Source: Solwaraspora sp. WMMD406
Lineage (GTDB): Bacteria; Actinomycetota; Actinomycetes; Mycobacteriales; Micromonosporaceae
DNA length: 64,000 nucleotides
Direction of reading: 5' to 3'
NCBI RefSeq assembly: GCF_029626025.1
Contig: NZ_JARUBF010000001.1
Coordinates: forward strand, 6,232,001 to 6,296,000
This document shows positions 2,825 through 63,192 of the stretch, piece after piece. The notes under the pieces were generated by a model that was given only the letters and a program-made list of their open reading frames with translations, searched no databases and was not told the origin of the DNA. Every line of letters begins with the position of its first letter. Position 1 is the stretch's first letter. Made by a program: the position numbers and the translations under genes.

Positions 2825-3595
2825 TCAGGCGCCGTAGCGGCGCTGTCGACTGGCGTACGACCGCAGGGCCCGCAGGAAGTCCACCCGGCGGAAGTCCGGC
2901 CAGTTGACGTCGCAGAAGTAGAACTCCGAGTGCGCCGACTGCCAGAGCAGGAACCCGGAGAGCCGTTGCTCGCCGCTGGTCCGGATGACCAGATCCGGGT
3001 CCGGCTGCCCCCGGGTGTAGAGGTGCTCGGCGATGTGGTCGACGTCGAGGACCTCGGCCAACTCCTCCAAGGTGCCGCCCGACTTGGCGTGCTCGTACAG
3101 CAGGGAACGGACCGCGTCGGCGATTTCCCGCCGCCCGCCGTAGCCGACCGCGATGTTGACCTGGGCACCGTCGCTGCGACCCTGGGTCCGTTCCTGGGCG
3201 GTCTTCAGCGCTGTCGCGGTGGCACCGGGCAGCAGGTCGAGCGCGCCGACGATCCGCAGCCGCCACGGGTTGCCCTCTTCGGCCAACTCGGTCACCAGAT
3301 CCTCGATGATCTTGAGGAGTGGGTCGAGTTCCCGGGCCGGCCGACGCAGATTGTCGGTCGCCAACAGATAGAGCGTGACGTGCCCGATGCCGGCCTGGTC
3401 ACACCAGTTCAACAGGTGCTTGATCTTCGCCGCGCCGACCCGGTGGCCGTCGTTGGGGTCGACGAAGCCCATCTCCCGTGCCCAGCGACGATTGCCGTCG
3501 CACATCACGCCCACATGGCCGGGCACCGGCTTGCCCGCCAGCCTCGCCATGAGCCGCCGCTCGTAGGCGGTGTAGAGCAGGTCCCGCAGAGTCAT
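2825..3595 (-). CDS. uppS: Isoprenyl (cis-prenyl) diphosphate synthase
   Basis: This enzyme condenses isopentenyl diphosphate onto an allylic diphosphate to make Z-prenyl carriers for cell-wall glycans. The 256-residue protein has the family motif VMCDGNRRWA near residues 29-38, with the catalytic Asp, and the C-terminal RTSGEQRLSGFLLWQ followed by a Phe/Tyr/Trp-rich tail, as in UppS and the short-chain mycobacterial homologues. Product chain length cannot be told from sequence. ATG 3595 is set by a minus-strand -10 TAGTCT (3608-3603), 7 nt upstream. The open frame continuing far upstream is rejected because it has no family homology there. Confidence 0.9.
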   Translation of the reverse strand: MTLRDLLYTAYERRLMARLAGKPVPGHVGVMCDGNRRWAREMGFVDPNDGHRVGAAKIKHLLNWCDQAGIGHVTLYLLATDNLRRPARELDPLLKIIEDLVTELAEEGNPWRLRIVGALDLLPGATATALKTAQERTQGRSDGAQVNIAVGYGGRREIADAVRSLLYEHAKSGGTLEELAEVLDVDHIAEHLYTRGQPDPDLVIRTSGEQRLSGFLLWQSAHSEFYFCDVNWPDFRRVDFLRALRSYASRQRRYGA

Positions 3596-3663
3596 CCCCT
3601 GCAGACTAGCGATTGCGCCGCCGCCGCGCGGGATCGGACCACCACGCGGACTCCCCGTCGGCC

Positions 3664-31962: not shown

Positions 31963-32029
31963 CATGATCAGTTGTCGTTCTGCCAGGCGGATGTCGGCGT
32001 GTCGCCCGGCAGAACGACAACTGGTCATG
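31963..32029. repeat. 67-bp palindromic element, copy 1
   Basis: Arms CATGATCAGTTGTCGTTCTGCC (31963-31984) and its complement at 32008-32029 pair over 22 bp with one G-T type mismatch; the 23-nt loop contains CGGCGTGTCGCCC. Copy 3 at 63125-63192, read on the opposite strand, has the same plan: identical outer CATGATCAGTTG, identical inner CGGCGTGTCGCCCGGC, and matched (compensatory) differences in the stem. No coding capacity. The remainder of the 349-bp gap (31770-32118) holds the duplicated ribosome-binding segment and presumably the ATP-grasp promoter. Confidence 0.8.
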
Positions 32030-32973: not shown

Positions 32974-33042
32974 CAAGATCAATGTGAGCGCCATGGTTGT
33001 CAAGACCGCGATATGGCAACAATGGCGCTCACATTGATCTTG
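32974..33042. repeat. 69-bp palindromic element, copy 2
   Basis: Perfect 21-bp arms CAAGATCAATGTGAGCGCCAT (32974-32994) and its complement (33022-33042) enclose a 27-nt loop that can extend the stem through GTTGTC/GGCAAC. Length and the GATCA-containing tips match copies 1 and 3, but the stem sequence differs, so kinship is weaker. It may double as the terminator of the orphan gene. Confidence 0.75.
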
Positions 33043-59766: not shown

Positions 59767-60963
59767 ATGAGCCGGTCGAGCCCAGATGCCGACGTGACGG
59801 CACCCGACGAGCGACCGCCGTCGCGGCCCGGACCGGGCCTGGCGGTGCTGACCGCGGTCGGGCAGCCGGTCGGCACCGCGATCGCCGCCAGCTGGCAGTC
59901 CGGCGGCGTCGGGATCATCGGGTACGCGCTGCTGGTGTTCAGCGGGCTGGCGCTGGCCGACCGGCACCGGTTCCCGCGGCGCAACTTCCTGATCGTGGTC
60001 GCCGCGACCCTGGCGTACCACCTGCTGGACCAGCCGGCCGGGGTGACGCTGCTGGCACCGATGATCGCCGCGTCGGCGGCGCGCGCTGCCGGCCACCGCT
60101 GGCTCGTCGGGGTGGCGGCGGTGACGGCGTACGGCATCTGGGTGCTGGTCGCCGGGGCGACGCCGCGGCAGGCGATGCTGGCGGTGGCGCTGATCGTCGC
60201 CGCCGGGCTGGTCACCGAGATCGGCACCCTCGTCGCCGACCGGGTCCGCGAGGGCGTCGCGGAGCAGCGCCGGCTCTCCGAGGAGCGGCAGCGCCGCCGG
60301 GCCACCGAGCAACGGCTGCGGATCGCCGCCGAGCTGCACGACGTACTCGGGCATCATCTGTCGCTGATCAACGTACGGGCCGGGGTCGGTCTGCACCTGA
60401 TGGACCGCGACCCGGAACAGGCCCGCGCGGCGTTGGAGGCGATCGCGCAGTCCAGCGCGGAGGCGTTGCGCGAGGTCCGCGCGATGCTCGACACGCTCTA
60501 CCCGCGCGGCGAGGCCGCGCCGCGTGCCCCCGCGCCGGGGCTGGACCGGCTCGGCGAGCTGACCGACGACGCGGCGGTGCCGACCCGGACGGTGATCGAC
60601 GGTACGGCCCGGCCGCTGCCGGCCGCCGTGGACCGGGCGGCGTACCGGATCGTGCAGGAGGCGTTGACCAACGTGCGGCGGCACGCCGGCCCGGGTGCCG
60701 CCGCCACCGTCACCATCGGATACCGACAGGATGCGGTGATGCTCCAGATCGATGACGACGGCGGCGGCGCCGGTGCGCCGGGGCCGGCTGCGTCCCAGGC
60801 TCCTGCTCCGGCTGGCAACGGGATCACCGGGATGCGGGAGCGGGCCGCCGCGCTGGGCGGCGAGGTGACCGCCGGTCCCGCGCCGGACGGCATCGGCGGT
60901 TGGCGGGTACGGGCCCACCTGCCGCTGGATCCTGACTCGTCGCCGGAGGAGGTTGCTTCGTGA
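59767..60963 (+). CDS. Sensor histidine kinase (NarL-partner type)
   Basis: A 398-residue membrane kinase. An N-terminal block of about five hydrophobic helices (about 20-145) is followed by a coiled coil (EQRRLSEERQRRRATEQRLR), the HisKA_3 phosphoacceptor His in ELHDVLGHHLSLI, and a HATPase domain with EALTNVRRHAG (N box) and GNGITGMRERA (G2 box). ATG 59767 follows TACAGT (59755-59760) by 6 nt. It overlaps its response regulator by GTGA. The signal is unknown; partners of this type often control adjacent transporters, but none is present. Confidence 0.9.
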   Translation: MSRSSPDADVTAPDERPPSRPGPGLAVLTAVGQPVGTAIAASWQSGGVGIIGYALLVFSGLALADRHRFPRRNFLIVVAATLAYHLLDQPAGVTLLAPMIAASAARAAGHRWLVGVAAVTAYGIWVLVAGATPRQAMLAVALIVAAGLVTEIGTLVADRVREGVAEQRRLSEERQRRRATEQRLRIAAELHDVLGHHLSLINVRAGVGLHLMDRDPEQARAALEAIAQSSAEALREVRAMLDTLYPRGEAAPRAPAPGLDRLGELTDDAAVPTRTVIDGTARPLPAAVDRAAYRIVQEALTNVRRHAGPGAAATVTIGYRQDAVMLQIDDDGGGAGAPGPAASQAPAPAGNGITGMRERAAALGGEVTAGPAPDGIGGWRVRAHLPLDPDSSPEEVAS

Positions 60964-61625
60964 TCCGGGTGCTGTTGGTCGACGATCAGGTGCTGGTCCG
61001 GGCCGGGTTCCGGGCACTGTTGGCGGCGGAGCCGGACATCGAGGTCGTCGGTGAGGCCGGCGACGGCGCGCAGGCGGTTCGGTTGGCCGGGCAGACCCGA
61101 CCTGACGTGGTCCTGATGGACATCCGGATGCCCGGGGTGGACGGGTTGACCGCCACCCGCCAGATCGCCGCCGACCCGCAGCTGGACGAGGTACGGATCA
61201 TCGTGCTGACCACGTTCGAGCTGGACGAGTACGTCGGCGAGGCGCTGCGCGCCGGGGCCGCCGGGTTCCTGGTGAAGAACACGCAGCCGGCCGAGCTGAT
61301 CCAGGGGGTACGGGTGGTGGCAGCCGGAGATGGTCTGCTGTCGCCGAGCGTGACCCGGCGGGTGATCGAGCAGTTCGCCGCCCGGACGGCCACTCCGGCC
61401 GCGCCCCGGCGGCTGGCCGAGCTGACCGACCGGGAACGGGAGGTGGTGGCGTTGGTCGGCACCGGACTGTCCAACGACGAGATCGCCGTACGGCTGGTGG
61501 TCAGTCCGGCGACGGCGAAGACGCATGTGTCGCGGGCGATGGTGAAGCTCGGTGCCCGGGACCGCGCCCAGCTGGTCGTGTTCGCGTACGAGGCCGGCCT
61601 GGTCCGCCCCGGCTGGCTACCTTGA
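60960..61625 (+). CDS. NarL/LuxR-family response regulator
   Basis: A 221-residue regulator. The receiver domain has VLLVDDQ, the phosphoacceptor Asp 54 in VVLMDIRMPG, TTFELDEYV and the conserved Lys in FLVKNT. The LuxR-type HTH at the C-terminus reads LTDREREVVALVGTGLSNDEIAVRLVVSPATAKTHVSRAMVKLG. GTG 60960 has GGAGGAGG at about 10 nt and overlaps the kinase stop (GTGA). It works with the kinase at 59767. Targets are not evident. Confidence 0.92.
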   Translation: MIRVLLVDDQVLVRAGFRALLAAEPDIEVVGEAGDGAQAVRLAGQTRPDVVLMDIRMPGVDGLTATRQIAADPQLDEVRIIVLTTFELDEYVGEALRAGAAGFLVKNTQPAELIQGVRVVAAGDGLLSPSVTRRVIEQFAARTATPAAPRRLAELTDREREVVALVGTGLSNDEIAVRLVVSPATAKTHVSRAMVKLGARDRAQLVVFAYEAGLVRPGWLP

Positions 61626-61633
61626 CCATCGCA

Positions 61634-61656
61634 CATGCTACTACTCTTGTAGCATG
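61634..61656. promoter_or_regulatory. Palindromic operator over the fic promoter
   Basis: CATGCTAC (61634-61641) and GTAGCATG (61649-61656) are perfect inverted arms around TACTCTT. The right arm contains the -10 TAGCAT (61650-61655), which ends 6 nt before ATG 61662. A bound repressor would block transcription directly. Confidence 0.65.
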
Positions 61657-61661
61657 GTGGC

Positions 61662-62792
61662 ATGATCTACGCGATGCCTCGGCTCGACGGCGCTGACCGG
61701 CAGGTCCTGCATGAGTTGGACCAGATGCGTGCCGACCTGCGGCTGCAGCTACGGTCCACCCCACGCTGGGCGGGCCAACTGCGGCGGAGCCTGTTCGCCG
61801 CCGCGATCCAGGGCTCGAACACCATCGAGCACATCACGATCAGCGGTTCGGACGCCCGAGCGCTCGTCGAGCAGGCACCCATGTCGGCGGAGACCAGCGA
61901 CGAGGTCCGCCAGGCGGTCGTCGGCTACCGCGACGCGATGACGTACGTGCAGCAGACACCTGAGTTGGACTTCTTCGAATACTCGCAGACGCTGCTCTCG
62001 GCCTTGCACTTCATGATCACCAAGTATCAGCCGGCGAAGTGGCCTGGCCGTTATCGGACCGGCGGGATCTTCGTAACCAGTGCCGACCCGCTGGAGCCCG
62101 TGTACACCGGCCCGGACGCGGAACGGGTCTCCGGGCTGATGGGCGAACTGGTCGAATGGCTCCGCCACGGCGACCTCGACGCGCCGGCGTACGCGCGAGC
62201 GGCGATGGCACACCTGAACCTGGTCAGCATCCACCCCTGGCGCGACGGCAACGGGCGCACGGCCCGCGCCCTGCACACCCTCGTGCTGGCCCGCACCGGG
62301 GAACTCGCCGCCGAGTTCTCCTCGATCGAGGAGTGGCTGGGCGAGCAGATCAACACGGTCCAGTACTACGAGGCACTGCGGTCCGCTCAGGACGGCAGCT
62401 TCCAACCTGATCGCGACGCCCACCCCTGGCTGCGATTCGTCCTGGCGGCGCATCACCGGCAGGCGCAGCGGGTGAAACGGCGCTCCGAGTGGGCAGTTCG
62501 ACTGTGGAACGATCTGGAACGCCTCACCGAGCAGAAGGGCCTGCCCGGACGGGTCGTCTCGGCGCTCTACGCCGCCGCCGCTGGCGAGCTACGGCGGACC
62601 ACTTATCAGCAGGACGAAGGTCTCAGCCGCGACCAGGCCATCCGCGACGTCCAGGCGCTGACCCGCGCCGGACTGCTGACGCCGCGCGGCAACGCGACCT
62701 CCCGGGTCTATCTGCCGGCCGGGGCGGTGGCCGAGATCGCCCAGGCGGCGACCGCAGCAGTACGCGGGCCGGGGCGCGACCCCTACCAGTGA
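61662..62792 (+). CDS. Fic-family AMP transferase-like protein
   Basis: A 376-residue Fic protein. The catalytic loop is HPWRDGNGRTARAL (His 191), matching HPFxxGNGR. The N-terminal helix carries SNTIEH (Ser 52, Glu 56), the position of the inhibitory (S/T)xxxE(G/N) motif of class II Fic proteins, with the last residue changed to His. The Fic/DUF4172-like N-region starts MIYAMPRLDG. The C-terminus (about 275-365) looks like a winged helix (SRDQAIRDVQALTRAGLLTPRG), so it may bind DNA and regulate itself. The 3' end forms half of a 22-bp hairpin. Confidence 0.88.
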   Translation: MIYAMPRLDGADRQVLHELDQMRADLRLQLRSTPRWAGQLRRSLFAAAIQGSNTIEHITISGSDARALVEQAPMSAETSDEVRQAVVGYRDAMTYVQQTPELDFFEYSQTLLSALHFMITKYQPAKWPGRYRTGGIFVTSADPLEPVYTGPDAERVSGLMGELVEWLRHGDLDAPAYARAAMAHLNLVSIHPWRDGNGRTARALHTLVLARTGELAAEFSSIEEWLGEQINTVQYYEALRSAQDGSFQPDRDAHPWLRFVLAAHHRQAQRVKRRSEWAVRLWNDLERLTEQKGLPGRVVSALYAAAAGELRRTTYQQDEGLSRDQAIRDVQALTRAGLLTPRGNATSRVYLPAGAVAEIAQAATAAVRGPGRDPYQ

Positions 62793-62819
62793 GCGCCCGC
62801 CCCGGCCCGCGTACTGCTG
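62755..62819. terminator. 22-bp perfect hairpin spanning the end of fic
   Basis: Arms at 62755-62776 and 62798-62819 are exact complements over 22 bp; the 21-nt loop includes the fic stop codon (62790-62792). The left arm codes for the last residues of Fic. It lies between the convergent fic and ribbon-helix-helix genes and probably terminates both. Confidence 0.75.
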
Positions 62820-62837
62820 TGAGAACGCCTGCTGGGG

Positions 62838-63044
62838 CTACCGTGCAAGGTTGAATTCCGCGAACGCCGCAGCCTCCTCGCCGGTGAGGGAGGCGTGCCA
62901 GGCAGCAGCGGCGTCGACGGCACGACGGTCGAGGTGTTCGCGGATCGCCTGAGCGACCAGAGCCGACCGGTTGCCACCAGCGACGGCGGCGACAAGATCC
63001 TCGCCGAGATCGTCGTCAAGGGTGATCGAGATGCTCATGGTCAT
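62838..63044 (-). CDS. Orphan ribbon-helix-helix (CopG-like) protein
   Basis: A 68-residue protein with the RHH strand MSISITLDDDLGEDL and helices AAVAGGNRSALVAQAIREHLDRR, ending in an acidic tail (EEAAAFAEFN). It looks like a VapB/CopG-type antitoxin, but no toxin gene is adjacent: fic converges on it and the upstream 80 bp hold only palindrome 3. ATG 63044 (or the next ATG, 6 bases in) follows CAGTCT (63057-63052) by 7 nt. It may be a lone DNA-binding protein or a leftover antitoxin. Confidence 0.75.
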   Translation of the reverse strand: MTMSISITLDDDLGEDLVAAVAGGNRSALVAQAIREHLDRRAVDAAAAWHASLTGEEAAAFAEFNLAR

Positions 63045-63124: not shown

Positions 63125-63192
63125 CATGATCAGTTGATGCTCCGCCGGGCGACACGCCGGCAAAACTCCCGGCAGAGCATCAACTGATCATG
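63125..63192. repeat. 68-bp palindromic element, copy 3
   Basis: Perfect 18-bp arms CATGATCAGTTGATGCTC (63125-63142) and its complement (63175-63192) enclose a GC-rich loop with GGGCGACACGCCGG. Read on the opposite strand it aligns along its whole length with copy 1 (31963-32029): same tips, same inner core, paired differences in the stem. Confidence 0.8.

Follow-up and report, generated by a model that had tools for sequence, protein, structure and literature searches.

A probable class II fic gene with a conserved inverted repeat over its presumed promoter in Solwaraspora, a candidate for self-repression

The fic gene in the window, the 64,000-nucleotide stretch of Solwaraspora sp. WMMD406 DNA analysed here, is preceded by an inverted repeat that encloses its presumed -10 box. 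It is likely, with a probability of roughly 0.8 judged from sequence comparison, that the gene is repressed by the C-terminal domain of its own product. Self-repression had been put forward in the first-pass annotation of this DNA. The idea is now supported by comparison, since the exact core of the repeat is found only before fic, the types of recognition helix and operator match, the related loci have no neighbour in common, and CccR provides a precedent. The features are collected in Table 1.

Table 1. Features of the fic locus and its surroundings, in window coordinates.
Feature	Position	Strand	Basis or remark
NarL-type response regulator gene, upstream (context only)	60960..61625	+	in 7/7 genomes of the genus, with or without fic
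Operator candidate, inverted repeat CATGCTAC-N7-GTAGCATG	61634..61656	.	conserved in A-type fic genes
-10 box TAGCAT of the presumed leaderless promoter, inside the right operator arm	61650..61655	+	position of TANNNT across loci
fic	61662..62792	+	376 aa; probable class II Fic, winged helix at the C-terminus; PF02661, PADLOC SoFic, fold match
Inhibitory motif S52-N-T-I-E56-H57	61815..61832	+	N-terminal to the Fic motif
Catalytic Fic motif H191-PWRDGNGRTAR	62232..62267	+	His191 in 154/156 loci
Predicted winged helix-turn-helix, residues 298-352	62553..62717	+	AlphaFold2 model; SoFic alignment
Recognition helix region, residues 321-335 (LSRDQAIRDVQALTR)	62622..62666	+	type-specific residues track operator type
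Perfect 22-bp inverted repeat, 5' arm, in the last fic codons	62755..62776	+	unpaired in genus orthologues L030, L031
3' arm of the inverted repeat	62798..62819	+	within the 34-bp junction 62791-62824
RHH (CopG/MazE-like) antitoxin-like gene, probable orphan	62838..63044	-	weak RHH_1 / MazE matches

PF02661 was the sole Pfam family found in the 376-residue protein (54.7 bits for a cut-off of 24, E = 1.9e-14, residues 110-209). The PADLOC profile for the SoFic defence system matches residues 14-351 with an E-value of 2.2e-39, any antiphage role of the protein being putative; the score with the NCBIfam equivalog NF046030 (SoFic) is 39.6 bits, below the required 550 bits. The catalytic motif at residues 191-202, HPWRDGNGRTAR, has a tryptophan in place of the phenylalanine of the HPFx(D/E)GNGRxxR-type motif, and the protein is presumably an AMP-transferase, probably toxic to the cell that makes it. 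Class II Fic proteins are defined by an inhibitory motif (S/T)xxxE(G/N) located N-terminal to the Fic motif (PMC9755527, excerpt). The position of the motif, Ser52 and Glu56 agree with this definition, and residue 57 is a histidine instead of Gly or Asn; that the glutamate is kept and its neighbour changed had been correctly noted beforehand. The comparison was extended to 156 fic loci, obtained from 200 after 18 that were short, truncated or without upstream sequence were dropped and duplicates were merged. Ser52 is present in all 156 and Glu56 in 155. Residue 57 is Gly in 130 loci, Asn in 12 and another residue in 14; in the 41 loci of type A, defined below, it is G (15), N (12), Q (5), H (4), K (3), R (1) or S (1).

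The structure was predicted with AlphaFold2 on an alignment of 54 sequences (mean pLDDT 93). The C-terminal region is modelled as three helices (residues 298-307, 312-319 and 323-335) followed by a two-stranded wing (339-342 and 349-352), which bears out the earlier suggestion of a winged helix. As the model displays this fold and the whole chain aligns with SoFic and CccR, the tail is taken to be real and of a known DNA-binding type. The predicted order of domains, Fic domain then C-terminal winged helix, is that of SoFic, CccR and CbFic2.

The two 8-bp arms of the palindrome are separated by TACTCTT, and the right arm contains TAGCAT, so that the claim of a palindrome enclosing the -10 is confirmed. 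It is the only match to the pattern in the window when up to three mismatches are allowed, with at least one equally loose match arising in 9 of 100 shuffles of the window. The 21-bp core has one exact copy in the 7.16-Mb genome and one more site with two mismatches; a reversed control pattern has eight sites. A search of 354 genomes from the same family gave 13 exact copies of the core, each lying exactly 6 bp upstream of a fic start codon. The reversed control gave zero sites there, and about 1.2 sites in all would be expected by chance, assuming the GC content of the window's genome and 8 Mb per genome.

Among the 41 A-type loci, the window included, TGCTAC-N7-GTAGCA is found without mismatch in 19, with at most one in 31 and with at most two in 35, the last level being reached by 0.09% of shuffled upstream sequences. 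It is retained in A-type relatives down to about 51% protein identity; distant A-type relatives (51-56%) keep the operator of the window and B-type relatives at similar distance (50-53%) do not. Both A-type copies without the catalytic His (L052, L053) have lost the operator, compared with one (L041) of the 39 others, by a cut-off for operator loss that was set after the data were viewed. In L045, L049, L062 and L069 palindromes reach toward the start codon. In a first set of 98 loci, the best palindrome scored 7.4 on average versus 4.8 in shuffles; the score was below 7 in 42 of them, and a clear palindrome is not universal.

A consensus scan found no -35/-10 pair at fic. TAGCAT lies 6 bp ahead of the ATG at 61662, and the hexamer TANNNT ending at position -7 was found in 86 of the 156 loci, with about two expected per position. 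The start codons were assigned by script, and one of them (L033/L137) is CAG. Words resembling a Shine-Dalgarno sequence were not enriched (26 of 156 loci versus 24.5 in shuffles). A TANNNT directly ahead of the start codon is a mark of leaderless genes in actinobacteria. The placement of TANNNT at -7, together with the lack of Shine-Dalgarno enrichment, fits leaderless mRNAs predicted to begin at the start codon. The -10 of A-type loci coincides with the right operator arm. In many E-type loci, as judged by eye, a palindrome TTGACG..CGTCAA spans the -35 and the spacer.

Six types of recognition helix were defined by residues 321-329, each with a typical upstream repeat: type A (S/TRDQ(A/S)) with TGCTAC..GTAGCA, type B (TDDQA) with AATNATT.TATGATT, type C (SQGQA) with GAATCATC..GATGATTC, type D (GTAN) with TTGACAGAT..ATCTGTCAA, type E (LQQAQ) with TTGACGTAAT..ATTGCGTCAA, and type F (ERTAS/T) with TGTCTCTTA..TAAGAGACA. 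Eight loci of other type were excluded from the counts, leaving 148. By position-free scoring, 125 of these loci lay beyond the 99% shuffle threshold for the motif of their own type (A 35/41, B 11/13, C 12/12, D 6/6, E 46/47, F 15/29), the F-type loci being poorly explained by one motif. One passing locus (L102) appears degenerate by eye. The motifs were derived from these very loci, which leaves the cross-type counts as the sole independent control. A locus seldom passes for a motif other than that of its own type, and none outside type A does so for the A motif; D-type loci exceed the C-type threshold in five of six cases, and E-type loci the B-type threshold in seven of 47. Sixteen genomes carry fic paralogues of different helix types. 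Their own-type motif is present at 31 of the 35 paralogues (the exceptions are L041, L052, L076 and L115), and at every paralogue in 12 of the 16 genomes. As a side observation, the helices NTQQATRD (L021, L183) and SEQQAIRD (L184) have repeats of their own (ATGATA..TATCAT and TTGACAGGATGATCCTGTCA, respectively), each in one or two loci.

Helix, operator and the remaining protein have largely been inherited together. The similarity of upstream sequences has a partial rank correlation of 0.37 with the helix versus 0.11 with the rest of the protein, over pairs that are not independent. Sharing seven or eight of the nine helix residues did not raise upstream similarity in pairs with 45-50% N-terminal identity (5.3 vs 4.9, n = 46) or 35-45% (4.8 vs 5.2, n = 15). 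The 46 pairs consist of 15 A-A pairs and 31 that join different types, six of the 46 being A-B. A fixed-register profile classifier was correct in 122 of 148 loci. When training loci with at least 75% N-terminal identity were removed, 88 of 116 assignments were right (32 loci untestable), and with removal at 65% identity, 61 of 71 (77 untestable).

The palindrome is kept by A-type fic genes amid different neighbours, which argues against a separate transcription factor that would bind it and control fic, be it the adjacent NarL-type response regulator or a protein encoded elsewhere. The response regulator gene does end 36 bp ahead of fic on the same strand, but it also occurs in genomes of the genus without this fic, and it was rejected as the binder of the palindrome on genomic context. 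Any outside factor would have a single exact site per genome, at fic, and would need to change each time the helix of Fic changes; this reading is considered unlikely. Less likely still, the palindrome would be no operator at all but a promoter element, a cruciform, or the terminator of the upstream operon. The conservation of the -10 within one arm indeed needs no repressor, and the repeat starts 8 bp past the stop codon of the response regulator. The left arm, however, lies outside the -10 and is nonetheless retained, with constant spacing, among A-type loci with differing upstream genes, and unrelated repeats occupy the promoters of other fic lineages. No convincing covariation was found at position pairs outside the core over 33 A-type loci (lowest shuffle p 0.04). 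This scarcity of compensatory changes disfavours a structural hairpin, and a selected cruciform or RNA hairpin at the operator is unsupported. Quasi-palindrome repair was also considered as the origin of the operator, and is unsupported.

The remaining alternative, that the adjacent RHH gene codes for an antitoxin or regulator acting on Fic, concerns a gene that the first-pass annotation had overlooked when it stated that no antitoxin gene is adjacent. It encodes a 68-residue RHH/MazE-like protein, assigned by weak family matches, and is convergent with fic, 45 bp past the fic stop codon. A tblastn search with this protein over 125 loci returned the window's own locus and a weak match of 24 residues in L121. 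The slot in which fic lies follows a histidine kinase gene and the response regulator gene, a pair present in all seven genomes of the genus. Intact fic occupies the slot in three of them (the window, G005 and G006), and in G005 and G006 no RHH match turned up within the 9 kb surrounding fic. G001 and G004 have an RHH gene there without fic: in G004 it lies at L205:3586-3906 on the minus strand and adjoins a PemK/MazF-like gene (E = 7e-05), and in G001 a near-identical ORF of 106 aa (L208:466-786) stands in the same place. In G003, fic has a large internal deletion (L209, about 3450-3613), and both its last codons and a nearly intact operator survive; in G002, a 40-bp remnant of fic is left (L207, about 794-833). 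A copy of 60-70 bp of the 3' end of the response regulator gene was also observed beyond the RHH gene in L205 and L208. As the RHH gene adjoins a PemK/MazF-like gene in L205 and is found without fic in G001 and G004, the one in the window is probably, by this sequence comparison, an orphan of another toxin-antitoxin pair. As the antitoxin of Fic it was rejected, and a regulatory link between the two is hardly credible. The A-type loci do not share another candidate: the largest group of common neighbours covers 7 of 34 loci (ORFs of at least 60 aa within 1.5 kb, 25 largest groups listed), and no conserved cognate antitoxin gene of the kind that characterizes type II toxin-antitoxin systems was found among these 34.

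The 3' end of fic carries a hairpin of 22 perfect pairs with a 21-nt loop. RNA folding of positions 62740-62840 gave -76.4 kcal/mol (z = -8.1). It had been described as a terminator whose stem of 22 pairs uses the final codons; the stem and its use of the codons stand. No T-run is present at the hairpin to back a terminator, and both intact orthologues of the genus lack the 3' arm and the perfect pairing, leaving a conserved terminator unsupported. Homology to fic stops at 62790 and homology to the RHH segment begins at 62825. Given the orthologues without hairpin, the missing T-run and the position at a rearrangement junction, the hairpin is probably a local inverted duplication made at that junction, with quasi-palindrome repair as a possible origin. 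One result speaks for something more than a purely local event. In L049, a distant A-type relative, a perfect hairpin of 18 bp with a 3-nt loop spans the stop codon of fic, from -22 to +17, and it also uses the last fic codons, with a sequence unrelated to that in the window. In the 38 other loci among the 40 listed, perfect stems near the stop codon do not exceed 14 bp. In 424 kb of the genome (the window and 18 further stretches), 17 perfect stems of at least 16 bp were found, four of them of at least 22 bp, and the hairpin at fic is the only one to overlap a gene end according to a crude gene call.

Other hairpins were seen in passing. Near-identical long hairpins (CAAGATCAATGTGAGCG...) at 32974-33042 of the window and at L214:14350-14422, distant sites of the genome, perhaps represent a dispersed hairpin repeat. 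A second family, with CATGATCAGTTG arms, occurs at 31963-32029 and 63125-63192 of the window and, in L210 and L211, on the downstream side of fic.

In the mechanism proposed for self-repression, the C-terminal winged helix of Fic would bind the inverted repeat, presumably as a dimer. Bound Fic would obstruct RNA polymerase at the -10 that lies within the repeat, so that little of the presumably leaderless fic mRNA is transcribed. The gene would form a circuit combining toxin and repressor in one protein, with an operator that is the sole exact copy in the genome, and the inhibitory helix carrying Glu56 would act as a second brake, at the protein level. This suggests how a toxin gene may be carried without an antitoxin gene. 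A broader proposal is put forward tentatively, with the odds rather against it: actinobacterial class II Fic proteins with a winged helix-turn-helix would be one-gene toxin-repressors with private operators, at least six helix types going with six operator types, and the operator would replace the antitoxin. If true, the six pairings would constitute a natural recognition code. Occupancy of DNA would limit the putative toxin, which would be released once host DNA or the control of the promoter is lost, for instance when a phage attacks. As several operator types occur within one genome, specificity swaps can be directly designed and tested.

The Fic of the window is most probably a class II Fic, of the SoFic/CccR type. 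To our knowledge, CccR is the one experimental case of autorepression by a Fic protein. CccR of Yersinia pseudotuberculosis (PDB 7XUX) represses its own gene through its C-terminal domain, which acts on an inverted repeat in the promoter (PMC9755527, excerpt). The window has similar elements, a Fic that is probably of class II, with a C-terminal domain of DNA-binding type, and an inverted repeat located at the core promoter of the gene that encodes it. The sequence match to CccR extends over Fic residues 9-368, and the fold alignment has a Z-score of 23.8 over 334 residues with an rmsd of 8.0, reflecting a domain shift. The operators differ: the CccR boxes are AGATAATCAT-N26-ATGATAATCT (PMC9755527, excerpt), whereas the window fic has other half-sites, TGCTAC and GTAGCA, with a 7-bp spacer, over the -10 of a gene that is presumably leaderless. 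CccR is moreover described as a T6SS effector in the same excerpt.

SoFic of Shewanella oneidensis (PDB 3EQX, 3ZCN) is the best full-length fold match (Z-score 30.5, 339 residues, rmsd 3.0), with an alignment covering Fic residues 1-366; its DNA binding is stated as not shown in an excerpt of PMC10628234. EcSofic has a 47-residue antitoxin gene, AS1, downstream, and a C-terminal domain of the same kind is needed for toxicity (PMC12249575, excerpt), whereas the neighbour in the window is a convergent RHH gene, probably of another system. CbFic2 of Coxiella burnetii (PDB 8CIL) is a class II Fic that likewise has a C-terminal winged helix-turn-helix (Z-score 27.3, 322 residues, rmsd 8.6). Its activity is stimulated by DNA, in assays performed with random sequences, and the excerpt of PMC10628234 describes no operator in its own promoter, unlike the case of the window fic. 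In class I pairs such as VbhT-VbhA, which are also bacterial Fic toxins, the inhibitory helix is on a separate protein (PMC9755527, excerpt); the window Fic has it within its own chain. Hardly anything is said to be known about what class II Fic proteins do and how their activity is controlled (PMC9755527, excerpt). Among the best matches listed from open-licence full texts, none reports autorepression in an actinobacterial Fic or operator switching. The principle is already known from CccR; new are the form of the operator, the geometry of the promoter and the breadth. With about six operator types over the 156 fic loci from actinobacteria, the CccR case becomes a testable rule.
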